22,691 nucleotides of DNA from a virus, in IMG/VR virus record IMGVR_UViG_3300034066_003047, positions 1 through 22,691 of that record; one strand, 5' to 3'. Below, piece by piece: positions 7,211-22,619 of the stretch. Below the pieces are notes generated by a model, which was not told the origin of the DNA, searched no databases, and was given only the letters and a program-made list of their open reading frames with translations. Each line of letters begins with the position of its first letter. Position 1 is the stretch's first letter. The translations under genes were made by a program, and so were the position numbers.

Positions 7211-7262
7211 ATCCTTCGACGCGCTGCGCTTGCTCAGGATGTTCCGGCTCAGGCCGGAACAC
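7211..7262. repeat. Composite repeat: REP motif plus GTTCCGG palindrome
   Basis: A variant REP (ATCCTTCGACGCGCTGCGCT, ending TGCTCAGG) is joined to the perfect palindrome TGTTCCGGC-TCAG-GCCGGAACA (7240-7261). The palindrome's loop contains the TGA stop of the 7575-7249 gene. The REP part carries the Shine-Dalgarno site of the 7202 gene on the minus strand. Confidence 0.85.
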
Positions 7263-7575
7263 ATGCCAGCGACCAGCACGGGCCGGCGGGGGAGACTTTG
7301 GTGCACCACCAGCTGCGGCCGAGGGCGGTGACGCCGAAGCGGGGGGCGGCTTCGGGGGCGGTGTCCCACTGGGCGCGGGTGGCGACGATCTCGAGTTCCT
7401 CGATGCGCTTGAGACCATTGGGGCCGGGCTCCATGCCGACGGTGCGGAGGTTGAGGACGCCCTTGTAGGCGTCGCCGCCGATGGTGAACGCGCCGGAGTC
7501 GTCGGGGTCCGCCATGGGGGCGAGGATCGCCTGAGCTTGCTTGGCGGCTTGGGCGAGGATGTTTGAGTAAGACAC
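7249..7575 (-). CDS. Head-tail connector-position protein with repeat-derived end
   Basis: The 108-residue product starts MSYSNILAQAAKQAQAILAP. Features are an N-terminal helix, then short strands (DDSGAFTIGGDAYKGVLNLR, IEELEIVATRAQWDT) and a GRSWWC segment. It is the first gene after the accessory island and opens the neck and tail block, the slot of small head-tail joining or stopper proteins (lambda FII is of similar size). The C-terminal residues CVPA and the stop are read out of the GTTCCGG palindrome, so the ancestral end was probably elsewhere. The leader holds a strong hairpin with a T-rich tract 14 bases from the ATG and a CCCGGTTTGACAC motif further out. Function is inferred from position only. 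Confidence 0.6.
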   Translation of the reverse strand: MSYSNILAQAAKQAQAILAPMADPDDSGAFTIGGDAYKGVLNLRTVGMEPGPNGLKRIEELEIVATRAQWDTAPEAAPRFGVTALGRSWWCTKVSPAGPCWSLACVPA

Positions 7576-7580
7576 AGGGA

Positions 7581-7615
7581 AAAGAAAAGCCCCCGCCCGC
7601 TAGGCGGACGGGGGC
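7581..7615 (-). terminator. Rho-independent terminator or leader attenuator ahead of the 7575 gene
   Basis: A 12-pair stem with one mismatch (7589-7600 pairing with 7604-7615, loop TAG) begins GCCCCCG and is followed on the minus strand by TTTTCTTT. It lies 125 bases beyond the stop of the 8477-7740 gene, yet only 14 bases before the next ATG. It may close the accessory island, attenuate the tail operon, or both. Confidence 0.8.
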
Positions 7616-7653
7616 AGGGCACGAATGAACTAGGGCTGGCAACTACGCGGGGA

Positions 7654-7666
7654 GTGTCAAACCGGG
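7654..7666 (-). promoter_or_regulatory. CCCGGTTTGACAC leader motif
   Basis: This 13-base sequence is identical to the one at 19894-19906. In both cases it precedes a terminator-like hairpin that abuts the start of a head-tail joining gene. TTGACA resembles a -35 box, and GCGT-n-GTT follows five bases after the motif in both copies. No clear -10 box is seen. Confidence 0.3.
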
Positions 7667-7671
7667 GCAAG

Positions 7672-7733
7672 ACAGGATGGACAGGATGGACAGGATCGAA
7701 TCCTGTGAATCCTGTGAATCCTGTGCATCCTGT
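7672..7733. repeat. ACAGGAT/ATCCTGT 9-base periodic hairpin array
   Basis: Three ACAGGAT units at 9-base spacing are followed, after CGA, by four inverted ATCCTGT units at 9-base spacing. The array therefore folds into a long periodic hairpin. On the plus strand it is followed by TTTTT. It begins six bases after the stop of the 8477-7740 gene. A three-unit version lies inside that gene at 8035-8059. Confidence 0.92.
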
Positions 7734-7739
7734 CGTTTT

Positions 7740-8477
7740 TCAGGATGCTCGGAGGGCCGCGTGGGCGATGTCCCAGGGCATGATCTCGGGCGGGCGGTGT
7801 TGGCCGTTGGTGCGGAGGGTGGTGAATTCCGTGCGGAGGGTTTCGTGGAGGTCGATGCTCCCGCGCTCGAGGTTGGCTTTGACGAGGCTTTCGGGATGGA
7901 ACGGGCAGCCGGCGGCGAGCAGTTCGGGGATGGCGGCGAAGGTGTTGCAATAGGTCTGCGCGGCGAGCGGGCCCATGATGGCGAAGCGGTCGTTGATCCC
8001 GCCGAAGCGGCCCCACCAAGGCGTAAAGCAGGAGACAGGATGAACAGGATCGACAGGATCCCAATCCATACTGTGAAACCAGAGATCCGCACGCATACGG
8101 ATGATGGTTTCAAACTTGTTACTTGAAGCCTTGTCACTTGTTACTTGGCGGAAGTGCTTCCAGCACTCCGCCTGATACCAGTGCTGCAGGAGGAGCTGGT
8201 GCGCGGGGGCAGCGTTGGCGTAGGGGGCTTGGTGGTAGGCAGCGGCGAGCTCGGGGGTGAGGTGGTCGGAAAGGTCGGGGTCCTGCCGGCCGTCGACGTG
8301 CACGCGGTCGGCGCCGAACTCGCGGCGGAGGTCGTCGGTGAGTTGGATCTCGGGACCGTCTTGGACGGTGATAAAGAAGTGAGGATCGGCAAAGTGACGC
8401 AGGACGTGCCAGCGTTGAGTGGGCCAGCACTTGGCGAAGGTGCGCAGTTGGCCGGAGATCAGAATGGCGGTGCTCAT
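7740..8477 (-). CDS. Glycosyltransferase-like protein with repeat-derived insertions
   Basis: The product has 245 residues, starting MSTAILISGQLRTFAKCWPT. An N-terminal ISGQ-R-F motif, a central IIRMRADLWF and a later FGGINDRFAIMG are the signature pattern of phage and bacterial glycosyltransferase-like proteins of the ISGQ type; the Arg-x-Asp segment probably plays the DxD-like metal or donor role. Two internal segments derive from dispersed repeats. Residues about 111-121 come from the ACTTGTTACTTG pair and residues about 138-149 (WDPVDPVHPVSC region) from an ACAGGAT array; both preserve the frame. It is the last gene of the accessory island. Activity may be affected by the insertions, but they fall between conserved motifs. 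The donor and acceptor are unknown. Confidence 0.65.
   Translation of the reverse strand: MSTAILISGQLRTFAKCWPTQRWHVLRHFADPHFFITVQDGPEIQLTDDLRREFGADRVHVDGRQDPDLSDHLTPELAAAYHQAPYANAAPAHQLLLQHWYQAECWKHFRQVTSDKASSNKFETIIRMRADLWFHSMDWDPVDPVHPVSCFTPWWGRFGGINDRFAIMGPLAAQTYCNTFAAIPELLAAGCPFHPESLVKANLERGSIDLHETLRTEFTTLRTNGQHRPPEIMPWDIAHAALRAS
8035..8059. repeat. Intragenic ACAGGAT array (3 units)
   Basis: ACAGGAT occurs at 8035, 8044 and 8053, an exact 9-base period that keeps the reading frame. On the minus strand it encodes the DPV-DPV-HPV tripeptides of the glycosyltransferase-like protein. It matches the left half of the hairpin array at 7672-7733. Confidence 0.92.
8114..8147. repeat. Intragenic ACTTGTTACTTG direct repeat
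   Basis: The 12-base sequence ACTTGTTACTTG occurs at 8114-8125 and 8136-8147. On the minus strand it encodes part of QVTSDKASSNK in the glycosyltransferase-like protein. It lies about 55 bases from the intragenic ACAGGAT array. Confidence 0.88.
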
Positions 8478-8483
8478 AAAAGA

Positions 8484-8574
8484 TTAACCACAGATAAAAC
8501 CGGATTCAAACCAGATGAGGGCACCAAGCCGGAAGGGTTTGATCCGGTTTAAATCCGGTTTGATTTGTGGTTAA
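8484..8574. repeat. Palindromic intergenic repeat R3 (type A)
   Basis: The left arm is TTAACCACAGATAAAACC and onward, to 8516. The right arm ends GATTTGTGGTTAA at 8574. It lies between the Zn dehydrogenase and the glycosyltransferase-like gene, six bases from the latter's ATG. Confidence 0.93.
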
Positions 8575-8584
8575 ATGGATTGGG

Positions 8585-9607
8585 TCAGGCGGCTTGCTGC
8601 AGGGCTTGGGGCGGGCTGCATTCGATCATGACGCGGCCGGCGGCGCCGGCGACGACGAGGTCGAGGGCGGCGTTGATTTTATCGAGGGGGAAGACGTGGG
8701 TGACCATGCGGTGAAACATGATCGAGGAGGCGAGCTTGAGGTAGCGGGGGATGTCGCGATCGGGGCGGAAGCCGCCGCCCTGGGTCGCCTTGATCTGCTT
8801 GCCTTCGCCTTCGAACAGGTGCCGCGCGTTGCGCACGCAGACGGGCTTGCCGGGCGCGGGCTGGCCGATCATGACGTACCGGCCGCTGGGCGCGAGTTGC
8901 TCGAGCGCGTGATCCATGGTGTCCACCGCGCCGGCGGTATCGATGACGAGGTCGAAGGGGCCGGTGACCTTTTCCGCCGCGGCGAGGTTAACGAAGTCGG
9001 CGCCCTGCAGCTCGGTTGGGAGGCGCTTGTCCTCGTGGAGATCGCAGCAGACAAGGCGCGTGGGCTCGACCATCTCGAGGGCGCCCAGCAGCGCCATCCC
9101 CAGCCCGCCGGCGCCGATCACGAGCACCCGCTCGCCCCAGCGGGCCTCGCTCTCGACCGTGGCAAGGGCGGTGGACACCGAGCAGCCGAGCAGCGCGGCG
9201 ACCGTGGGGTTGGTGTCGGCAGGGACCGGGGTGAGCCGGTTCTCGGAGCAGATCGCCTGCTCGGCGAAGGTCGTGACGAGGCCGCTCGTCATCGTGGCGC
9301 TCTGGTAGTGATACTTCGGGAAATCGCTCTCGATGCCGGCGGCTTTGCGCCAGTGCATGACCACCTTGTCGCCCTCGCGCACGCGCGTGACGCCGGGGCC
9401 GATCTTCTCGACGATTCCGCAGCCCTCGTGTCCGAGCGGGTGCGGAAGCGGGCCGGTTTTCTTTTCGCCGCGGATTTCTTGGAGTTGGGCGCCGCAGATG
9501 CCGGAGACCAGCACGCGGACGAGCACTTGGCCGAAGTCGAGCGGCATCGGAGTGATGTCGGCGATCTTGAGGGGGGCGTTATGGCGGGTGAGTAATGCTG
9601 CTTTCAT
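8585..9607 (-). CDS. Medium-chain Zn-dependent dehydrogenase (MDR family)
   Basis: The 340-residue product starts MKAALLTRHNAPLKIADITP, full length for the family. The N-terminal GroES-like domain carries likely catalytic zinc ligands Cys38 (GICGAQ), His60-Glu61 (LGHEGCG) and Cys142 (LLGCSVSTALAT). The Rossmann NAD(P) motif is VIGAGGLG at 163-170, and Asp189 in the following strand end (CCDLHEDK) suggests NAD preference. The four-cysteine structural zinc loop usual in classical alcohol dehydrogenases is absent from the segment around residues 80-120. Substrates in this family include alcohols, polyols, threonine and butanediol, and cannot be assigned. It is flanked by R3 and R4 and sits downstream of the E1-like pair, so it may act on a keto or hydroxy product in the same pathway. 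No virion role is expected. Confidence 0.88.
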   Translation of the reverse strand: MKAALLTRHNAPLKIADITPMPLDFGQVLVRVLVSGICGAQLQEIRGEKKTGPLPHPLGHEGCGIVEKIGPGVTRVREGDKVVMHWRKAAGIESDFPKYHYQSATMTSGLVTTFAEQAICSENRLTPVPADTNPTVAALLGCSVSTALATVESEARWGERVLVIGAGGLGMALLGALEMVEPTRLVCCDLHEDKRLPTELQGADFVNLAAAEKVTGPFDLVIDTAGAVDTMDHALEQLAPSGRYVMIGQPAPGKPVCVRNARHLFEGEGKQIKATQGGGFRPDRDIPRYLKLASSIMFHRMVTHVFPLDKINAALDLVVAGAAGRVMIECSPPQALQQAA

Positions 9608-9625
9608 GCGGAAGGCTCGGAAGTT

Positions 9626-9713
9626 TTGACCACAGATTTCACAGATAAAGGCAGGATAAAGGCACCGACGCCTGAGCTTTTATCCGGCTGGGATCTGTGT
9701 AATCTGTGGTCAA
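9626..9713. repeat. Palindromic intergenic repeat R4 (type B)
   Basis: It is bounded by TTGACCACAGATTTCACAG and AATCTGTGGTCAA, with AGATAAAGGCAGGATAAAGG after the left edge. It fills the gap between the dehydrogenase start and the E1-alpha-like gene. Its right edge supplies that gene's TGA stop (9710-9712). Confidence 0.93.
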
Positions 9714-10390
9714 ACGGTTTGGCGTTTGAGTCTTTCGATCGCTTCGGGCTGGAAGGTGATGAAGTGTTTGCAGCCGCTGCCGGCGTGGGGGTAGGTCGGG
9801 GTGTAGTGGTAGCGGCGCACGCAGTGGAAGTGGTCGAGCGGCGTAGCGGCGCGGCCGGTGCGGCGGTGGTCCTTGGGCGTGTCGACCTGACGGGCGTTGT
9901 CTTCGATGATGAAGGTGCAAGGCAGGGCGTTGGCCTCGACGAAGAGGGCGGCCTCGTAGAAGTGTCCCTCCTCTTCGGCGCCGTCGCCGAGGAAGCACCA
10001 GACTTTAGGCGCAAGGTGCGCGCGATCGTGGAGCATCGGGCGGCAGGCGTAGGCCACGCCGGCGGCGATGCCGCAGGTGCCGGCAAGGATGGCGCTCGAG
10101 TAGATGTTTGCGTCTGCATTCTTTCGCGCGCGCCGGAAGGTAAACATGCTGCGCCCATCGATGATCGCCTGCTCGAGTTCGGCCTCGGGCATCCCGCAGA
10201 GCAGGGCGTGGTAGTGGTTGCGGTGGGTGGAGAAGACCCAGTCGCCGGGGCGGATGCGGGCGAAGATTTCCAGCAGGTGGTCTTCGTTGCCGCCGCAGAG
10301 GTGGATCAGGCTGGGCAGGCGGCCGGCTTCCCAGTGGGCTTTGATGCGGTTTTCGAATGCGATGAGAGATTGGGCAGTGTGCTGGATCAT
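9710..10390 (-). CDS. Thiamine-diphosphate E1 alpha-like subunit (short form)
   Basis: The product has 226 residues, starting MIQHTAQSLIAFENRIKAHW. The ThDP/Mg-binding motif begins GDG at 135-137 and ends EDN at 163-165. HRNHYHALL (56-64) matches the active-site His region of 2-oxo acid dehydrogenase E1 alpha subunits. Full-size E1 alpha proteins have about 320-400 residues, so this is a reduced version holding mainly the pyrophosphate-binding core. It is paired with the E1-beta-like gene upstream; in the E1 family the two subunits form the active site together. Such pairs also occur as stand-alone carboligases in sugar-branching pathways such as those of orthosomycin antibiotics. No E2 or E3 gene is present here, so oxidative dehydrogenase function is not supported. 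The stop codon is the edge of R4. Confidence 0.8.
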   Translation of the reverse strand: MIQHTAQSLIAFENRIKAHWEAGRLPSLIHLCGGNEDHLLEIFARIRPGDWVFSTHRNHYHALLCGMPEAELEQAIIDGRSMFTFRRARKNADANIYSSAILAGTCGIAAGVAYACRPMLHDRAHLAPKVWCFLGDGAEEEGHFYEAALFVEANALPCTFIIEDNARQVDTPKDHRRTGRAATPLDHFHCVRRYHYTPTYPHAGSGCKHFITFQPEAIERLKRQTV

Positions 10391-10398
10391 TTTATTTA

Positions 10399-10462
10399 TC
10401 GCGAAAGCGCGAAAAGGCGGAGGCGCGGAATTTTGTGGTTTCGCTCTTCCGCGTTTTCGCGA
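10399..10462. repeat. TCGCGAAA/TTTTCGCGA hairpin repeat between the E1-like genes
   Basis: Arms TCGCGAAA-GCGCGAAAA and CCGCGTTTTCGCGA enclose GGCGGAGGCGCGGAATTTTG. The repeat begins nine bases upstream of the E1-alpha-like ATG and directly abuts the E1-beta-like TAA. It belongs to a different family from R1-R8 but occupies an equivalent junction. Confidence 0.85.
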
Positions 10463-10990
10463 TTAGATCAGATCCTTGTACTCGACCAGCACGGTGGACT
10501 CGCCGCGGAGCTGTTGTTCGCGGGCGGCGGCGTAGATGCCGGCGATGTCGTCGGCGGCCTCGAGCTGGATGACGGGCGTCTCCTTGAGCATCCAACGCAG
10601 GGCGAGGCTGAAGTCCTGAACGTGCGGCGGGCCGGTGAAGAGAGGCTTGGTGTGATTGCCCACGGTGATGCGGACGATCACCGCGGGGGTGAATTCGCCC
10701 CGGGAGAGGTTTGCGGCTTTGTCGAGGTGATTGACCAGGCAGTCGAGGGCGTTGAGGAGGAAGTCCATCCGCTCGATGTAGGCGACCGGGCGGAGGCCGG
10801 CGAGGGAGAGGCCGGTGGCGACGCCGAGCAGGAGGTTTTCCGCCACGGGCGTTTCCACGATCTGCTCGCGCGGGACGTGGCGCAGCGTGCCGAGGGCGCC
10901 GCCCTTGGCCATGCCGTAGCCGACGAACCGCGTGAGCGGATCCGCGGCGAGGGCGGACATGGCGGCGGTCAGGGATTCCTTGTAGGTCAT
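10463..10990 (-). CDS. Thiamine-diphosphate E1 beta-like subunit (PYR domain only)
   Basis: It encodes 175 residues from the ATG at 10990 (MTYKESLTAAMSALAADPLT); a longer frame only reads into repeat R5. The block VETPVAENLLLGVATGLSLA (45-64) matches the E1 beta signature TP-x-x-E, with Glu51 the expected residue that activates the aminopyrimidine ring of ThDP. LRPVAYIERMDFLLNALDCL continues the PYR domain. Usual E1 beta subunits have about 325 residues with a C-terminal transketolase-type domain, which is absent here; the protein ends cleanly at EYKDLI. It probably pairs with the E1-alpha-like protein. Loss of the C-terminal domain suggests a simplified enzyme, perhaps an acyloin-type carboligase, but this is inference. 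Confidence 0.8.
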   Translation of the reverse strand: MTYKESLTAAMSALAADPLTRFVGYGMAKGGALGTLRHVPREQIVETPVAENLLLGVATGLSLAGLRPVAYIERMDFLLNALDCLVNHLDKAANLSRGEFTPAVIVRITVGNHTKPLFTGPPHVQDFSLALRWMLKETPVIQLEAADDIAGIYAAAREQQLRGESTVLVEYKDLI

Positions 10991-10997
10991 TTTTTGG

Positions 10998-11080
10998 ACC
11001 ACAGATAAAACCGGATGCAAACCGGATGAAGGCATCAAACTTTGCGGCTGGATGCTGCTTTTATCTGTGTGATCTGTGGT
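10998..11080. repeat. Palindromic intergenic repeat R5 (type A/B chimera)
   Basis: The left edge ACCACAGATAAAACCGGATG is of type A, while the right edge TTATCTGTGTGATCTGTGGT is of type B. This suggests recombination between the two repeat types. It separates the E1-beta-like gene from the GT9-like gene. Confidence 0.92.
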
Positions 11081-11095
11081 TGAAAGGCTTGGAGC

Positions 11096-11869
11096 TCAAA
11101 GGAGGCCGCGGTCGCGCAGGATTTCGGGGACGAGCGAGAGGCTGTTGCAGTGGACGGTGCGCTCGGGGATGTAGTCGACGCGCTCCTGGTCGAGGAGGTG
11201 CACGCGGAGCGCGACGGTGTCGGCGTTCCACTGGTTGAGGCAGGGCCACATCGGGCCGGTGACGCAGCCGATGATGCAGCGGGCGCGGTGCGAGACCATG
11301 CCGATGTGGGTGATGTCGCCGCCGACGTCTTGCGTGCATCCAATGTTGCCGCCGCACGGGGCCGTCGTGAGAACGCTGTACTTTTCCGCCAGGCTACGAG
11401 CGAGCCGGGCGAAGCCGGCGCCATCGAAGCCCTGCCACTGGCCCGATGAGGGAGGGCTGTTGATAATGAGGAAGTCCAGCGGGTAGCGGAGCTGCGGGGG
11501 ACGCAGCGCCGGGTAGTCAAACAGCATGTCGCGGCCGCAGTGGATCGGCGACTCGAGGCCCATGGCGCGCGCGAGGTGGCGGAACCAGTCGAGGTGGTAG
11601 GCGACGAAGTCGTTGCGCTGCGGGTGGGCGTACCAGTGGCCGCCGGCGCCGCGCCAGCCGTTGATGGCGCCCTGGCCGACCTCGCCAATGCTTTTGACGG
11701 TGAGGTTTTCGAGATCCTGCCAGACGGGGTAAAGTTGCGCCAGGTGGTGGTCGGGGGCGCCGTGGATGAAGTGGGTGTCTGGATACGCCTGCGCGAGTTT
11801 GCGCAGGAAGTGCAGATGGACGAGGTTGTCGCCTAAATGGAGGGCGTTGAACGTGGAGATGGTTTTCAT
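11096..11869 (-). CDS. GT9/heptosyltransferase-like protein (short)
   Basis: The 257-residue product starts MKTISTFNALHLGDNLVHLH. The N-terminal GDN motif (13-15) after a strand, then HFLRKLAQAYPDTHFIHGAP, is the pattern of glycosyltransferase family 9 (ADP-heptose:LPS heptosyltransferase type, GT-B fold). The C-terminal region with DFLIINSPPSSGQWQGF, a GMVSHRARCIIGCVTGPMWP segment and the following strand is where the nucleotide-sugar site would be. GT9 proteins are usually 320-360 residues, so this is a compact relative; some related forms bind but do not transfer sugar. It lies alone between R5 and R6 in the accessory island. Its acceptor could be a host surface glycan or the virion. Confidence 0.7.
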   Translation of the reverse strand: MKTISTFNALHLGDNLVHLHFLRKLAQAYPDTHFIHGAPDHHLAQLYPVWQDLENLTVKSIGEVGQGAINGWRGAGGHWYAHPQRNDFVAYHLDWFRHLARAMGLESPIHCGRDMLFDYPALRPPQLRYPLDFLIINSPPSSGQWQGFDGAGFARLARSLAEKYSVLTTAPCGGNIGCTQDVGGDITHIGMVSHRARCIIGCVTGPMWPCLNQWNADTVALRVHLLDQERVDYIPERTVHCNSLSLVPEILRDRGLL

Positions 11870-11887
11870 TGCAAACTGCCGGAAGTT

Positions 11888-11973
11888 TTAACCACAGATT
11901 TCACAGATAAAGGCAGGATGAAGGCAGCGCGGCCGGGGACTTATCCGGTTTTATGTGTGCAATCTGTGGTCAA
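11888..11973. repeat. Palindromic intergenic repeat R6 (type B)
   Basis: It is bounded by TTAACCACAGATTTCACAG and AATCTGTGGTCAA. The 3' end of the small gene 12165-11941 is read from inside the right arm, including its stop codon. Confidence 0.93.
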
Positions 11974-12165
11974 CGGATTGGGATCTCGGAGGCGCATGAG
12001 GTGAATGCGTTGGTCGAGAAGTTCGTTCATGCGAGTCATCCAGTGGCGGCGTTCTTTGCTGTTGGGCGACGATTCTAGCCAGTAGGCGCGGACGGTGCTG
12101 ATCACGGCGTCGAGTTGCGCGATCAGCCCGGCGGATTCGGATTTGAGGTCGTGGATCTGGCTCAC
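11941..12165 (-). CDS. Small helical protein coupled to the glycosyltransferase
   Basis: It encodes 74 residues from a GTG at 12165 that forms a GTGA overlap with the stop of the glycosyltransferase gene. The sequence SQIHDLKSESAGLIAQLDAV and onward is charged helix (STVRAYWLESSPNSKERRHW, MTRMNELLDQRIHLMRLRDP), probably a coiled coil. The last 11 residues (PLTTDCTHKTG) and the stop are encoded by repeat R6, so the native C-terminus was likely near LRDPN. I do not recognise the family. Translational coupling implies equal expression with the transferase, perhaps as a partner or as a remnant of the phage gene that originally followed the capsid region. Confidence 0.6.
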   Translation of the reverse strand: MSQIHDLKSESAGLIAQLDAVISTVRAYWLESSPNSKERRHWMTRMNELLDQRIHLMRLRDPNPLTTDCTHKTG

Positions 12166-13160
12166 GCGGCGGCGGCCTGGGGCGCGAGGGCTTTGGCGAG
12201 GCGCGCGCGGTCGACGGCGGGGTGGTTGTGCTCGAGGAGGTGGATGACGGCGCCCTCGAGTTCGGCCACGGTGGGCGGGTAGAGGAGATTGCCGAAGTGG
12301 CGGAGCTTGATCTCGGTGTCACCGTACACCTTGCCGCCGAGTTCCTGCCAGAAGCGGCAGATCTTCCAGTCTTCGGAGAGCCAGTGGGAGACGCCGTCGC
12401 CTTGGTAGTGCTTCCAGCCGCGGAGCGTGGCGAGCTGCGCGGGGGTAAGGTCGGACTCGGGAATCTTGGGCCCGTAGACGCCGCTACCGAAGTAGCTGAA
12501 GTGAATCTGGCCGGCGAAGGGCGTGTTGGGCGCGCAGATGTAGGGCTTGACCTCGGGATGGTCCTGCAGGGCAAGGAAGACATCGCGGTGCATCAGCAAG
12601 CAGCCGGTGCCGGCATCGGACAACTCGATCAAGCCGGTCGTCGGATCCGGCCGGGCGCCGCGGGCGACGTTGGCGACGAAGGTCGGTTGCAAACACTTCA
12701 TCGCGTAGTGCCCGGCGACCATCTTGTAGCCGTTCATCGCGTGCTGGAAGAGGCGGGCGATGTGGGGCGGGAGGAACTGGATGTCGCCATCGACCCAGAG
12801 CAGCCAGTCGGTCTGGTTCTGAACGACGAAGTGATTGGCGAGGATATTCCGCGCGCGGTCGATGTGGGAATCGTTGCCGACCGTCAGCCGGCCGCTGCTG
12901 CCGTTCTCGAGGTAGCCGGCGAAGACCGTATCCAAGGAAACGCTACCGTCGGCGTTGCGGAACCGGGCCGACGGTGCGCGCTCGCACGCGCGGAGGCTCT
13001 CGAGGTAGACCTCGGTGGAGAGGTTGCCGTAGGCGGGGGTGGCGATCTGGAATCGCTGGCGGCGGTCGAAGATTTCGACGGCGACGCCGTTTTCGGGGCG
13101 CGTGCTGCGTTTGACTTGGGCGGGCGCGGCCGCCGCGATGGGATGCGGGGGGAAGTTCAT
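12162..13160 (-). CDS. GT-A-like glycosyltransferase
   Basis: The product has 332 residues from the ATG at 13160 (MNFPPHPIAAAAPAQVKRST). The start is set by AGGTG ten bases upstream, and the longer open frame crosses R7 and a terminator. WLLWVDGDIQFLPPHIARLF contains the metal-binding Asp-x-Asp (DGD, 124-126) after a strand, and DRARNILANHFV precedes it, as in family-2-like transferases. A later GTGCLLMHRDVFLAL block is typical of phage and capsule transferases of this class. It is the first gene after the major capsid protein, separated by a terminator and repeat R7. Phage glycosyltransferases can decorate capsid or tail, modify DNA, or change host surface sugars; nothing here decides which. 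Confidence 0.8.
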   Translation of the reverse strand: MNFPPHPIAAAAPAQVKRSTRPENGVAVEIFDRRQRFQIATPAYGNLSTEVYLESLRACERAPSARFRNADGSVSLDTVFAGYLENGSSGRLTVGNDSHIDRARNILANHFVVQNQTDWLLWVDGDIQFLPPHIARLFQHAMNGYKMVAGHYAMKCLQPTFVANVARGARPDPTTGLIELSDAGTGCLLMHRDVFLALQDHPEVKPYICAPNTPFAGQIHFSYFGSGVYGPKIPESDLTPAQLATLRGWKHYQGDGVSHWLSEDWKICRFWQELGGKVYGDTEIKLRHFGNLLYPPTVAELEGAVIHLLEHNHPAVDRARLAKALAPQAAAA

Positions 13161-13179: not shown

Positions 13180-13186
13180 GTGTCAA
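13180..13186 (-). promoter_or_regulatory. TTGACAC motif upstream of the glycosyltransferase
   Basis: An exact TTGACAC lies 19 bases before the ATG, just after the capsid terminator and repeat R7. Because a strong terminator precedes it, some new promoter is needed here if the island is transcribed. This motif is a candidate -35 box, but no clear -10 box follows. Confidence 0.3.
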
Positions 13187-13200
13187 GCCGACCAAGGCGG

Positions 13201-13278
13201 TGACCACAGATAAAACCGGATCCAAACCAGATGAAGGCTCCAAGCCGGAAGAGCGTGATCCGGTTTGATCTGTGGTCA
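13201..13278. repeat. Palindromic intergenic repeat R7 (type A)
   Basis: It is bounded by TGACCACAGATAAAACCGG and CGGTTTGATCTGTGGTCA. Its last base overlaps the T tract of the capsid terminator. It marks the border between capsid genes and the accessory island. Confidence 0.93.
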
Positions 13279-13308
13279 AAAAAACAGCCCGCCGGTAAGG
13301 GCGGGCTG
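13278..13308 (-). terminator. Rho-independent terminator after the major capsid gene
   Basis: A perfect 9-pair stem CAGCCCGCC/GGCGGGCTG (13285-13293 and 13300-13308) has a six-base loop and is followed by seven T residues on the minus strand. It lies 65 bases after the capsid stop and should end the head operon. Confidence 0.92.
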
Positions 13309-13349
13309 CGAACCGATACAAACCTCGGCGGGGTGGGCGGAAAAGATTT

Positions 13350-13372: not shown

Positions 13373-14266
13373 TTACGTGTGCTTGATGACGACGGCGGCG
13401 GAGTTGTCGCCGATGGCGGCGGCGCCCTGCATCCAGTCGTAGGAGATCCACATCGTGCGGGTCGCCGTGCTCATCCAGGTCGTCTGGAGGAGTTGCACCG
13501 TGGGCGTGGACAGCGCGCCCTGGTTGATGGTGCCGCGGCCACCGAGCGGGACGGAGATGACCTGCTGCTGGATCGCCTCGCCGAACATGGACGGGACCGC
13601 TTCCGGCAGGCCGGTCAGGAGCGCGACGGCGCCCGGCGTGACGGCCGCGGCGTAGATGTTGGCGCCGGCACCCGTCCACCTCGTGTTGAGGTAGAAGTTG
13701 TCGAAGCCGGCGAGACCGGCGCGCGGGCCGAACTCGGTGGTGAGCGAGGCCGGCAGCATTTTGCTGTAGCTGGTCGCATCCAGGACCGCGCTCTTGGTCT
13801 GGCCCTTGGCGGTGATGGCCCACGCCTGCTGCAGCGTGCTGGCGAGGTTGGCCTGCGTGAGGTTGGCCAGCGTCAGCGTGAGGTTCTGGAAGTTGGTCGT
13901 CGTGAGCGGCGTGAACGCGACGTCCATGAACTTGTTCGCGATGGCCTGGATGCCGACGTCGATGGCCTGATCGAGCCGGAACTCGTTGTTGAGTTGCCGC
14001 GGCGTGAGGGACATCGACGCCGAGTACTGGTTGACCAGGATGTTGACGTTGGTCAGACCCCAGGTGCCGGATTCCCAGTTGGTGGGGTTGGTCTGGACCG
14101 TCGGGCCGGCGTTGGCGACCTGGAAGCGGACGTTCTGGCCCTGCGTGTATTCCTCGTTGGAGAAATCCGTGCTGAAGGCGTTGAGCGGCGCGAAGACGTT
14201 GCCGAGGTAGGTGACCGTGCGCTTGGAGACGCGGTCGAGGACGAGATCTACGGAAAAGCTAGACAT
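13373..14266 (-). CDS. Major capsid protein (probable HK97 fold)
   Basis: The product has 297 residues, starting MSSFSVDLVLDRVSKRTVTY. The N-terminal region with FAPLNAFSTDFSNEEYTQGQ, a central helical part (LDQAIDVGIQAIANKFMDVA) and C-terminal strands (TRTMWISYDWMQGAAAIGDN) are the general layout of phage coat proteins, and the size is usual for HK97-type heads. Position supports the call: it follows the S49 protease and a scaffold-position gene, and is followed by a strong terminator, as fits a very highly expressed gene. There is no clear Shine-Dalgarno site. The head would be matured by the protease upstream. I see no decoration domain in the chain. The alternative, another virion shell protein, is less likely given the order. 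Confidence 0.8.
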   Translation of the reverse strand: MSSFSVDLVLDRVSKRTVTYLGNVFAPLNAFSTDFSNEEYTQGQNVRFQVANAGPTVQTNPTNWESGTWGLTNVNILVNQYSASMSLTPRQLNNEFRLDQAIDVGIQAIANKFMDVAFTPLTTTNFQNLTLTLANLTQANLASTLQQAWAITAKGQTKSAVLDATSYSKMLPASLTTEFGPRAGLAGFDNFYLNTRWTGAGANIYAAAVTPGAVALLTGLPEAVPSMFGEAIQQQVISVPLGGRGTINQGALSTPTVQLLQTTWMSTATRTMWISYDWMQGAAAIGDNSAAVVIKHT

Positions 14267-14979: not shown

Positions 14980-14991
14980 GGGGTCGGGCTT

Positions 14992-15081
14992 TTAACCACA
15001 GATCAAACCGGATCCAGACCGGATAAAGGCACCAAGCCGAATGGATTGATCCGGTTTGGATCCGGTTTCATCTGTGGTTAA
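14992..15081. repeat. Palindromic intergenic repeat R8 (type A)
   Basis: The left arm TTAACCACAGATCAAACC onward (14992-15024) pairs with the right arm (15049-15081) with only a few mismatches. It closely resembles R1. It separates the protease gene from the scaffold-position gene, inside the head operon. Confidence 0.95.
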
Positions 15082-15096
15082 AAGCCTTGGGAAGAA

Positions 15097-19548: not shown

Positions 19549-19820
19549 CAGGCGAAGCGGAGCGCGGCGCGGTTGGAGGTGGGGAAACCGTAGTCGGTGA
19601 TGCCAAGGGAGACGTAGGCGGCGGCGAGGGCGTCGCCCCACTGCTCGAGGGTGAGCTCGCGTCCGCCGACCTGGAACTGGAAGGATTGGCCGTTGATGCT
19701 GGCGCCGGTGAGCTGGGTGTTGCTCTTCTGCACTTCCGCGATGTAGCGCAGCCGCTCCTGGTTCAGTTGAGCCAGGGTGAAGAAGCGGTAGAGGCCGGCG
19801 GTGACGGTGGGCTGAGGCAT
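19548..19820 (-). CDS. Head-tail joining protein (gpW position)
   Basis: The product has 90 residues from the ATG at 19820 (MPQPTVTAGLYRFFTLAQLN). Two helices (TLAQLNQERLRYIAEVQKSN; ELTLEQWGDALAAAYVSLGI) are separated by a strand (GQSFQFQVGGREL). Small size, this fold pattern and its place between the terminase large subunit and portal match lambda W, which completes the DNA-filled head. Similarity is by pattern only. The start abuts a T-rich tract of a strong hairpin, leaving no room for a Shine-Dalgarno site. The stop overlaps the portal start by one base. The larger open frame upstream, to 21209, is an antisense-phase shadow of the terminase. Confidence 0.72.
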   Translation of the reverse strand: MPQPTVTAGLYRFFTLAQLNQERLRYIAEVQKSNTQLTGASINGQSFQFQVGGRELTLEQWGDALAAAYVSLGITDYGFPTSNRAALRFA

Positions 19821-19860
19821 TGGAAAACGGAAAACCCCGGCGGCAGGGCGCCGGCCGGGG
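19821..19860 (-). terminator. Rho-independent terminator or leader attenuator ahead of the joining gene
   Basis: A 7-pair GC stem CCCCGGC/GCCGGGG (19835-19841 and 19854-19860) with a 12-base loop is followed on the minus strand by TTTTCCGTTTTCC and then directly the ATG at 19820. It lies 79 bases after the terminase stop. Its closeness to the next start suggests it may also act as a leader hairpin. Confidence 0.8.
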
Positions 19861-19893
19861 TCAGGGAGAAGCGGAGATGTAACCACGCCGAAC

Positions 19894-19906
19894 GTGTCAA
19901 ACCGGG
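19894..19906 (-). promoter_or_regulatory. CCCGGTTTGACAC leader motif
   Basis: This is identical over 13 bases to the motif at 7654-7666 and likewise lies upstream of a terminator-like hairpin that abuts a gene start. It may be a -35-like promoter part or a protein-binding site. No -10 box was found. Confidence 0.3.
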
Positions 19907-19940
19907 TCTCGCGCAGAGGCGCGGAGGCGCGGAGAAATTC
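19907..19940. repeat. CGCGGAGGCGCGG dispersed repeat at the terminase stop
   Basis: The motif reads TCTCGCGCAGAGGCGCGG then AGGCGCGGAGAAATTC. It abuts and slightly overlaps the stop codon of the terminase large subunit (19939-19941). GCGGAGGCGCGGA also appears inside the hairpin repeat at 10399-10462, suggesting related families. Confidence 0.75.
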
Positions 19941-21768
19941 AGGCTTTGGGCTGATCGGTGGCCACGGTCTCGATGCTTTCGGCGCCGATGAGGCCGGCCA
20001 TGGAGGCGAAGACCACCTGCATGGCTTCGTCGTCGCCGGCGTGGTCGTCGTGGAGGCCGTGCCAGACCCAGTAGATCTGCCCCTCGTCGGTGGTTTTCTT
20101 GATCCGGTAGTGGGCGTCGATCTCCTTGAAGTACCAGTCGGGGGCGTTGCGGGCGGCGGTCCACTGTGGTTGGCCGTCGGGGCCGCCAAGGGTGCGCACG
20201 AGGTGGAGGCGGGAGAGGGCTTTCTGTTTGTTGAAGAGAATCTGCGCGACATTGACGGGGGCGTGGGCGGTGCCCTGCCAGGCGTTGATCCAGCGCGGCT
20301 CGTCGTAGATGCGATACGTGCCGGTGGCGGGGTGGTGGTAGCCGGTGGCCTTGTCCTTCTCGCCCATGAAGACCCGCCAGCCGTAGGGCGCGCAGATGCG
20401 GCGGACGTACTCGGAGTCGTGGCGCGCATCGAGAAAGACCCGCTCGGAGGGCACGGCGTGGCGGAGCTGGATGTCGCGAATCGCCGACGGTGAGGTAACT
20501 TTGGAGACGTGGCGCAGGCGGCTGCCGGACTTGCCCCACATGCGCACGAGCGGCACGAAATAGTCCTGCTGCACGTCGCAGGTGAGACAGCGGACCGGGC
20601 GGCCGTCGGGGTCGAGGGCCTCGCCAGCCCAGGGCGTGGCCTCGGTGGCGTCGGTCTGCATATCGTAGTCGCCGACCGGGCGGGCCTTTTGCGTGCGAAG
20701 GTATTTCTCGGGGATCCAGACCCCGGCCATCTCCTCGCGGATCCATTTGCCCAGCGGCTCGAGGTCGCCGCGCTTGAGGGCGAGCTGGGCTTTCTCGAAT
20801 TTGAAGGCGGTGTCGATCCAGGGGCGGATGGCGAGGGCGGGGAACGTCCAGCCGAAGCAGCGCGCGTGAGCGTTGGCGTTTTTGCTGACGTAGAGGCCCA
20901 CGGGGCGGTCGCAGGTGCCGGAAAGCGCGAGGCGGGAGGCTTGGGAATCGGGGAGGACGGCCTGGCAGCGGGGGCACTGGTGGTGCAGCGTGGCGGCGAT
21001 GGCGTTCTTGTCGGGCAGGCCGTCGGCATCGAAGGCCTTGGTGTAGCGGATGCCGCCGATGATGGGGGATTCGGGGTCGTCCTCCTTCTCGCGGTGGAGA
21101 TAGAGCGGCTCGAAGAACTTGCGGCACGACGGACACCGGACGTGCCAGGTGCGCTGGTCGGTGGATTTCCAGATGCCGACGGCTTCGGAGCCGGTGGCGC
21201 CCTCGCCATCGGTGAGGCCGGTGGACATGAAGGTCTCGGTGAACTCCTGCGACTCCGTGTACGCGCCGCGGCGGTTGCTGGCCTGCTCGATCCAGCCCGG
21301 CTCGTAGAGGTGGGGTTCGTCGAAGTAGAGATCGCAGTACGTGGCGCCGGTGCGGTCGTTTTCTGTATTCGCGGAGAGGATATGGTGCGAACCGCTGGTG
21401 AATTTCCAGTAGAGCTTGTGCTGCTTGAGCGCGACGTTGATGAAATCGGAGTCCTTGGCGGTGAAGATCGCCTCGAGCAGCGGGTTGAGCTTCTCGTCGG
21501 CGAACTTTTTGGCGAAATCGATGGTGGGGGCGTACCAGCCGGCGGGGCGGGGGCGGATCCAGTGGTTGCGGGCGAGGCGGAGCTGGCCGAGGGCGGACTT
21601 CAGCGACTGGTAGCAGCCGAGAATGAAGAAGCGGGCGCCATCGTGGGCGTCCATGGTGGCGAGGATGTCGCCGGCGAGGGCGAGGTCGAGGGCCTCGCGG
21701 AGCTTGGCGCCGTTGTCGAGGCGGGCGCAGGCGCGACGGGCGAAGGTGAGGGTGGAGAGGCGCTTCAT
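19939..21768 (-). CDS. Terminase large subunit (GpA family)
   Basis: It encodes 609 residues from the ATG at 21768 (MKRLSTLTFARRACARLDNG), chosen because it makes an ATGA overlap with the small subunit stop. The ATPase domain has GCYQSLKS at 51-58, matching GxxxxGKS except that the second Gly is Leu, and a Walker B-like YFDEP with Asp150-Glu151. Two CxxC pairs (212/215, CPSC; 265/268, CPRC) form the zinc knuckle typical of GpA proteins. The nuclease domain shows LTCDVQQDYFVPLVRMWG (Asp398), VFLDARHDSEYVRRICAPYG (Asp448) and HDDHAGDDEAMQ (Asp579/580), the expected metal-binding acids. It should cut concatemeric DNA and pump it into proheads through the portal. Length fits the family (lambda A is 641). 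Confidence 0.93.
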   Translation of the reverse strand: MKRLSTLTFARRACARLDNGAKLREALDLALAGDILATMDAHDGARFFILGCYQSLKSALGQLRLARNHWIRPRPAGWYAPTIDFAKKFADEKLNPLLEAIFTAKDSDFINVALKQHKLYWKFTSGSHHILSANTENDRTGATYCDLYFDEPHLYEPGWIEQASNRRGAYTESQEFTETFMSTGLTDGEGATGSEAVGIWKSTDQRTWHVRCPSCRKFFEPLYLHREKEDDPESPIIGGIRYTKAFDADGLPDKNAIAATLHHQCPRCQAVLPDSQASRLALSGTCDRPVGLYVSKNANAHARCFGWTFPALAIRPWIDTAFKFEKAQLALKRGDLEPLGKWIREEMAGVWIPEKYLRTQKARPVGDYDMQTDATEATPWAGEALDPDGRPVRCLTCDVQQDYFVPLVRMWGKSGSRLRHVSKVTSPSAIRDIQLRHAVPSERVFLDARHDSEYVRRICAPYGWRVFMGEKDKATGYHHPATGTYRIYDEPRWINAWQGTAHAPVNVAQILFNKQKALSRLHLVRTLGGPDGQPQWTAARNAPDWYFKEIDAHYRIKKTTDEGQIYWVWHGLHDDHAGDDEAMQVVFASMAGLIGAESIETVATDQPKA

Positions 21769-22619
21769 GCCGGCGGCGGCGCGTCCGGATCCTCGAGGGC
21801 GGCGGCGAGCGCGGCGCGCATGGCGGCGAGAGCCCACGTCGGGAGCGCGGCGCCGGTGCCGGCGGCGAGATCAGTGGAGCGGCGGAGCGGCTCGAGGACG
21901 CGGGTCGTGAGCAGGACGGGCTCGAGAATGGCGTCGACCTCCTGGCGGAAAAGCGGGCCCGTAGCGGAGGCGGCGGCGAGGCGAGGCGCGAGCGCGGCCT
22001 TGGCATCGTCGACCGTGCGGACCAGCCAGTAGGCGAGCGCGCGGAGCTGCCGCTCGTAGTCGGCGCGCGGAATGATGTCGCCGATCTCGCGGCCGAGGCG
22101 CTGGGCGCGCAGCTCCTCATCGTGAATGACGCCGGAGAGGCGGGTGATGGCCTCGGTGACGTCTTTTATTACGGGGAGGTTGTTCGTGGTGTTGGCGCGC
22201 TGAAGTTTGAAGATCGCGAAATCGCGCTCTTGGATGAGATCGCGGAGGTACGTGGTGTTCGGCGCGGGGACGCCGGCCGCCGTGGGCGTGGCGGCAGCGG
22301 CGCGGGCGGCCAGGAACGCGGCACGGTCGGGATCGTGCGGGGCGCCGGTCGGTGGCGCGGAGGAGGAGCCGACGTCGTTGGTCGCGGCGCTGGCCGGCGC
22401 CCGCGCCGCCTCGATGCGCAGCTCATCGATGCGCCGGCGGAACGAAGGCGAGAGCTTCGCCTGGATGACCGAAGGCTGGGAAGCGACCCACGCGAGCATC
22501 GCCGCCGGGTCGTCTACCGGGAGCGGCGGCGTGCGCGCGACCCACCGCTGAATCGTGCGCAGGTCCACGCGCCAGAAGGCGGCGCGCTGGGCGTTGAGGG
22601 AATTGGCGGTGTCAGCCAT
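21765..22619 (-). CDS. Terminase small subunit (DNA recognition)
   Basis: It encodes 284 residues from the ATG at 22619 (MADTANSLNAQRAAFWRVDL); a GTG at 22631 is also in frame but lies inside a hairpin, so the ATG is preferred. The N-terminal segment SLNAQRAAFWRVDLRTIQRW resembles the helix-turn-helix of Nu1-like small terminases that bind the packaging site. A long Ala/Pro linker (residues about 75-115) leads to a helical C-terminal domain (YLRDLIQERDFAIFKLQRAN onward) for oligomerisation and contact with the large subunit. Lambda Nu1 has 181 residues, so this is a long form. It overlaps the large subunit by ATGA, as expected for a two-subunit terminase. It is the first gene of the module in this window. 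Confidence 0.78.
   Translation of the reverse strand: MADTANSLNAQRAAFWRVDLRTIQRWVARTPPLPVDDPAAMLAWVASQPSVIQAKLSPSFRRRIDELRIEAARAPASAATNDVGSSSAPPTGAPHDPDRAAFLAARAAAATPTAAGVPAPNTTYLRDLIQERDFAIFKLQRANTTNNLPVIKDVTEAITRLSGVIHDEELRAQRLGREIGDIIPRADYERQLRALAYWLVRTVDDAKAALAPRLAAASATGPLFRQEVDAILEPVLLTTRVLEPLRRSTDLAAGTGAALPTWALAAMRAALAAALEDPDAPPPA

Follow-up and report, generated by a model that had tools for sequence, protein, structure and literature searches.

The subject of this study is an island of seven genes, together with the hairpin elements in its intergenic spaces, within the head operon of an uncultivated phage represented by the IMG/VR virus record IMGVR_UViG_3300034066_003047. The record, a partial and repeat-rich metagenomic contig, was analyzed over its entire 22,691 bases (hereafter, the window); its GC content is approximately 65%, and the recognised genes are all encoded on the minus strand. 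The head module was recognised in the PHROG scan by a head protease (phrog_53), a head protein of phrog_3758 and a portal match. The gene at 13373-14266 (minus strand), which gave no match in the Pfam and PHROG scans, was assigned as the putative major capsid protein (MCP) gene on the basis of its position after the head protease and the synteny in relatives. The island extends from 13160 to 7740, between this gene and the open reading frame (ORF) at 7249-7575, and its genes on the minus strand are arranged in the order GTA, small ORF, GT9-like, PYR, PP, ADH and ISGQ. An initial annotation of the stretch had placed seven such genes between capsid and connector, with which the coordinates, the Pfam and PHROG matches and the predicted folds determined herein were in good agreement.

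Predicted proteins of the island

Three of the island proteins are candidate glycosyltransferases, GTA being assigned by a DxD-like motif and PHROG matches, and the GT9-like protein and ISGQ by their predicted folds. GTA (12162-13160, minus strand; 332 aa), a putative GT-A glycosyltransferase, matched phrog_1574 at 9.8e-12 and phrog_34859, annotated as glycosyltransferase, at 3.1e-7, and a weak Pfam match to Anp1 was located at its DxD-like motif LLWVDGDI. The small ORF coupled to it through GTGA (11941-12165, minus strand; 74 aa) was described in the initial annotation as a small partner of the transferase; the coupled frame proved to be real, while a homologue was not found in the fetched relatives. 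Its last codons fall within the adjacent hairpin, and its final residues are thus hairpin-encoded.

The AlphaFold model of the GT9-like protein (11096-11869, minus strand; 257 aa; pLDDT 93) aligned over the whole chain with 3tov, WaaC, WaaF and TibC at Z scores of 13-14, and the predicted structure has the GT-B fold of these proteins. The window protein is shorter than WaaC/WaaF and TibC, and shares only 9-15% identity with them. Since the Pfam model PF01075 matched none of the 21 members, the protein is referred to here as GT9-like and not as GT9. For ISGQ (7740-8477, minus strand; 245 aa), the predicted structure (pLDDT 85) was closest to the metal-independent GT6-type GT-A enzyme BoGT6a, with a Z score of 12.9 over 184 residues and an identity of 10%, and there was a weak match to DUF7796. 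ISGQ is accordingly a probable glycosyltransferase of the GT-A fold.

Two further genes appear to encode the halves of a thiamine pyrophosphate (TPP) enzyme. PP (9710-10390, minus strand; 226 aa), the E1-alpha-like pyrophosphate-binding half, matched E1_dh in Pfam at 2.5e-14 and the E1-alpha chains of pyruvate dehydrogenase at 9.5e-18; in the PP alignment, GDG was invariant and N165 near-invariant, which is the pattern of the TPP motif, and the pyrophosphate-binding domain with the GDG...N motif of E1/transketolase-type enzymes is consequently present. PYR (10463-10990, minus strand), the E1-beta-like pyrimidine-binding half, matched Transket_pyr at 3e-5, which is under the Pfam cut-off, and positions 233-401 of phrog_34187 at 1.4e-37. 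It is very short, the chain stopping after about 175 aa, and a transketolase C domain was not seen in a protein whose only Pfam match, that to the pyrimidine-binding domain, is itself sub-threshold. Both proteins match a single family of phage proteins, phrog_34187, in which the two halves form one fused chain. PP is the E1-alpha-type TPP half, and PYR is probably the matching E1-beta-type half. The remaining gene (8585-9607, minus strand) encodes a Zn-dependent alcohol dehydrogenase (Zn-ADH) of 340 aa belonging to the medium-chain dehydrogenase/reductase (MDR) type, as indicated by matches to ADH_N (8.7e-19, Pfam), phrog_2640 (6.5e-69) and ADH structures (6e-44).

Conservation of the module in phages and cells

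Three relatives with the same island were obtained, two as contigs from the capsid search (L058, identical to L013, and L059, identical to L011) and the third, L065, from the PP search. In all three, the six main island genes occupy the same capsid-to-connector interval. Their identities to the window proteins (46-66%) overlap the range of the structural proteins (portal, 64%; MCP, 58%; g19, 46-51%; protease, 35-68%), which suggests a long vertical co-inheritance of the island. The order in the relatives is GTA-GT9-PYR-ADH-PP-ISGQ, and the window, with PP ahead of ADH, differs from it by one rearrangement. Since ADH was always found between PYR and PP in the loci with a GT9-PYR-ADH-PP run, the order in the window is probably derived. 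As a separate observation, identity to the best query match was only 64% for the MCP of L065 (L065:5284-6180), compared with approximately 77-93% between the island genes of L065 and those of its relatives; an exchange of the capsid gene alone is probable.

In more distant phages of the L034 type, the gene that immediately follows the capsid gene is again GTA, and ISGQ precedes the portal gene; in three loci of another phage type a PF05065 capsid gene is followed by GT9-PYR-ADH-PP-ISGQ-GTA. The island genes were not seen in MCP relatives near 30% identity.

To define the module more broadly, we took the 80 viral loci that contained the 80 best PP matches, a partly redundant sample that includes L058, L059 and L065, so that the following figures are counts and not independent events. 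PYR was located within 3.5 kb of PP in 77 of the 80, and a GT9-like gene was found in 65. According to Pfam, the middle gene was a radical S-adenosylmethionine (radical SAM) gene in 66 loci and ADH in 13, and no locus contained both; this mutual exclusion suggests that ADH and radical SAM do the same step. Many loci of the radical SAM type add a large GT2-like protein before GT9, downstream of the portal gene, as observed at L064:5946-7634.

In cells, the locus L143 contains the run GT9-ADH-E1-PfkB-SIS, and L140 and L141 contain the E1 pair with radical SAM genes. In the cyanophages S-SM2 and P-TIM68, ADH adjoins a fused E1 gene in saccharide clusters that also encode kinase, nucleotidyltransferase and phosphoheptose isomerase enzymes. 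The S-SM2 lipopolysaccharide (LPS) cluster has been described by Sullivan et al., who stated that its function was not known (PMC3037559). These clusters resemble the island in having an adjacent Zn-ADH (phrog_2640) and E1-type TPP enzyme (phrog_34187), whose proteins are each 48-50% identical to the ADH and PP of the window. They differ from it in that PP and PYR form one chain, in the additional kinase, nucleotidyltransferase and isomerase genes and in their large T4-like phage background, and no capsid gene was present in the stretch seen. The glycan role proposed in the initial annotation thus gained support from the occurrence of the TPP-enzyme and dehydrogenase genes in saccharide clusters elsewhere, as well as from the transferase assignments. 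Literature searches yielded nothing on a split-TPP module.

A search of genomes with the PP alignment returned at least 8 loci, spread over several phyla, and the eight listed give no indication of a host. From the GC content and the style of the repeats, a Verrucomicrobiota host of the Opitutaceae type might be suspected.

Hairpins and their turnover

The window was searched by a gapped dyad scan, with order-1 Markov shuffles of the window at an equal threshold as the control. Every intergenic space of the island from the MCP gene to the next structural gene (7/7) holds a strong dyad, and the shuffles gave none (0, 0, 0); the earlier description of a palindromic repeat at each junction but that of the GTGA-coupled pair was thereby confirmed. 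RNA-fold z-scores of five island dyads and one outside ranged from -3.5 to -13, far more stable than shuffles. Following the minus strand, the island contains an element of the CACAGAT/ACCGGAT family at 13201-13278 (dyad and RNA fold), one of the CACAGAT family at 11888-11973 (dyad) and one of the CACAGAT/ACCGGAT family at 10998-11080 (dyad), then a TCGCGAAA hairpin of a distinct family at 10405-10464 (z -3.5), a CACAGAT-family element at 9625-9714 (z -7.6), an ACCGGAT-family element at 8484-8574 (z -8.4) and, at 7671-7734, an ACAGGAT hairpin of a third family (z -5.9). Single arms were also found within the ISGQ coding sequence, one of the ACAGGAT family at 8034-8060 (GATCCTGTCGATCCTGTTCATCCTGTC), in a stretch that differs in relatives, and one of a CTTGTTACTTG word. 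Dyads of the same class outside the island are located at 14987-15086 (the strongest of the window, z -13), at 2144-2223 among the downstream genes and at 812-901. The class is therefore genome-wide, although its density in this genome is highest within the island.

The hairpin arms are built of quasi-repeated words of about 8-10 nt and form stems of about 26-40 bp, and the families comprise CACAGAT/ACCGGAT, CACGGAT, CGCGGAT, AAAGAG, ACACGAAA, AGTAGCGAG, CACAGAGCC and ACAGGAT. The CACNGAT families share a scaffold, in which CAAAA followed by YTCCG closes 13 of the 14 ends in L058 and L065. Comparison of these two phages revealed that at PYR|ADH, PP|ISGQ and GTA|GT9 a hairpin in one is matched by another family, or by nothing comparable, in the other. 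The relatives have no repeat at GT9|PYR (19 nt), nor does L059 at PYR|ADH (12 nt), and in the relatives hairpins are equally present between the downstream structural genes. In addition, a hairpin within the ADH gene of L058 (L058:9122-9225) adds 32 codons in-frame at a variable site, where L059 has a remnant and the sequences of L059 and L065 are other and shorter. Such an in-frame palindromic insertion with the gene still open was seen in the L058 ADH; the window has single arms in ISGQ only.

The hairpin class belongs to the GC-65% phage clade and was absent or nearly so in 16 other loci examined, ten of which carry the PP/PYR module. A broader hairpin pattern was detected in about two dozen viral contigs, with several copies only in that clade. 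Window-specific hairpin patterns had no match in genome contigs, viral contigs or plasmids, and the broader pattern names no host because only single copies were found in 1 of 297 genomes of one phylum and 2 of 296 of another. These cellular single copies of the CACNGAT architecture (L173, L174 and L175) lie in the phyla of a Desulfobacterales metagenome-assembled genome and a Bacteroidales one.

Like repetitive extragenic palindromic (REP) sequences and Rickettsia palindromic elements (RPE), the window hairpins are dispersed palindromes, mostly intergenic with some in ORFs. They are distinguished from both by far longer stems, by their several unrelated families and by their occurrence in a phage. 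GTAG REPs are defined by an unpaired GTAG tag at one end and a stem of 5-13 bp (PMC3733652); the window hairpins have neither the tag nor stems of this length. Literature searches found nothing on such hairpins in phages. The hairpins are best read as an independent dispersed class of RPE/REP-like palindromes with a fast turnover, and not as the assemblers of the island; they may be mobile.

With respect to transcription, the motif TTGACA occurs six times in the sense and never in the antisense direction in each of the window, L058, L059 and L065, mostly at matching places, which include sites immediately ahead of GTA and immediately behind ISGQ. The copy before GTA (13181-13186, minus strand) is conserved in position throughout the four. 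A sigma-70 scan did not find a complete promoter. TTGACA is a likely phage promoter motif as judged from its distribution, and the island is probably its own transcription unit behind such a motif. The initial annotation held that a terminator closes the island on each side. Indeed, the two best terminators of the region are an intrinsic-terminator-like hairpin after the capsid gene (13284-13309, minus strand), which has a 10 bp stem followed by a T run and is found at the same place in L058 and L059, and a second one (7589-7615, minus strand; terminator scan) upstream of ORF 7249-7575. The latter need not mark the island end, because a conserved promoter-like motif and leader of its own precede it. 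At 7589-7660 (minus strand), upstream of ORF 7249-7575, about 70 nt contain in succession a TTGACA-like motif, the leader GCCAGCCCTAGTTCATTCGTGCCC and the terminator; each of the four phages has this arrangement in the corresponding position, with a nearly identical leader, and it perhaps represents a small RNA or an attenuator.

Elsewhere in the window, a 785-aa ORF at 19763-22120 was tried as a terminase candidate and rejected, as it had no phage match and looks like a frame shadow. Rfam and tRNA scans of the window found nothing.

Weighing the interpretations

We consider that the interval is shared by two separate things, a conserved glycan module in the head operon and an unrelated hairpin class of fast turnover, and assign this interpretation a probability of roughly two thirds. 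It builds on the gene content, its conservation and linkage, the two glycosyltransferase folds and the hairpin polymorphism. In the proposed pathway, PP and PYR, each supplying one half of an E1/transketolase fold that apparently lacks the C-terminal domain, would form a two-chain TPP enzyme, and this enzyme, together with a redox enzyme (Zn-ADH here, radical SAM in most relatives), would generate an unusual sugar or polyol unit. The one GT-B heptosyltransferase-like enzyme and the two GT-A-type enzymes would then attach the unit, for which the most likely acceptor would be a virion protein from the same operon. The hairpins, for their part, occupy intergenic spaces throughout the clade, vary in family or presence from one relative to another at a given junction and are also found in-frame within genes. 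A further-reaching proposal, possible but on balance doubtful, combines a mobile-like hairpin system, in which unrelated families of one architecture swap at fixed intergenic slots and enter genes in-frame, with a pathway for an undescribed virion sugar encoded in the head operon, in which ADH and radical SAM are interchangeable.

Several observations weigh against the favoured interpretation. In cells, the ADH-E1 pair likewise serves in apparent surface-glycan clusters, so that a change of the host surface would fit equally; the hairpins of the window are denser in the island (7/7 spaces) than outside it, where three were found; the ADH/PP swap is a rearrangement within a repeat-bounded stretch; and for the hairpins neither a transposase nor an insertion duplication was found, and none of the scanned ORFs of this partial contig matched a transposase in PHROG.

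The initial annotation had interpreted the island as a cassette array assembled gene by gene through recombination between palindromic repeats, as the repeat in each island intergenic space of the window, the approximately 90% similarity of some copies and the ADH/PP order swapped relative to the relatives might suggest. Comparison of the capsid-to-connector interval, which gave the kind of result that the initial annotation itself had named as refuting it, makes such an assembly very improbable, since L058, L059 and L065 keep the same genes in place with the repeats missing at the two junctions named above or of unrelated families elsewhere, and the gene content is conserved, with one ADH/PP swap. 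Moreover, the module is present in dozens of phage contigs, of which those checked for hairpins lack the class, and the hairpins of the relatives also lie between downstream structural genes and inside a gene. The one event for which the repeats could be responsible is the ADH/PP swap of the window. The accompanying worry that misjoined contigs had produced the layout, natural for a repeat-rich metagenomic contig, carries practically no weight, as the layout over these junctions recurs in three relatives whose contigs are independently named.

More serious, though in our estimation still rather unlikely, is the alternative that the module alters a host surface polysaccharide, e.g., for a superinfection block or a receptor change, and not the virion. 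The heptosyltransferase fold of the GT9-like protein and the ADH-E1 pair in cyanophage LPS-type clusters and in the cellular cluster with GT9, PfkB and SIS genes are all consistent with it; the recurrent position of the module next to a capsid or portal gene in diverse phages, however, suggests co-expression with virion proteins, and TibC, a heptosyltransferase with a protein acceptor, likewise has the GT9 fold. It seems less probable again that the hairpins are regulatory, acting as terminators, attenuators or mRNA-stability elements under selection. Their very stable RNA folds and mostly intergenic positions would accord with such a role, but on the sense strand the CACNGAT class ends in GTGGT and then CAAAA or TAAAA, without a U-tract, separate true terminators stand beside some of the hairpins, and both family and presence vary between close relatives and extend into coding sequence.

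A single genome made two separate processes look like one, and the present analysis separates them. For the hairpins, there are pairs of phages in which a site is filled in one and changed in the other, so that the turnover of palindromes becomes directly testable. The module poses a biochemical question, namely what a split TPP enzyme paired with ADH or radical SAM produces and whether the virion bears the product. As the module recurs next to capsid or portal genes in diverse phages, it is a candidate for a virion-decorating pathway that is widespread among uncultivated phages.

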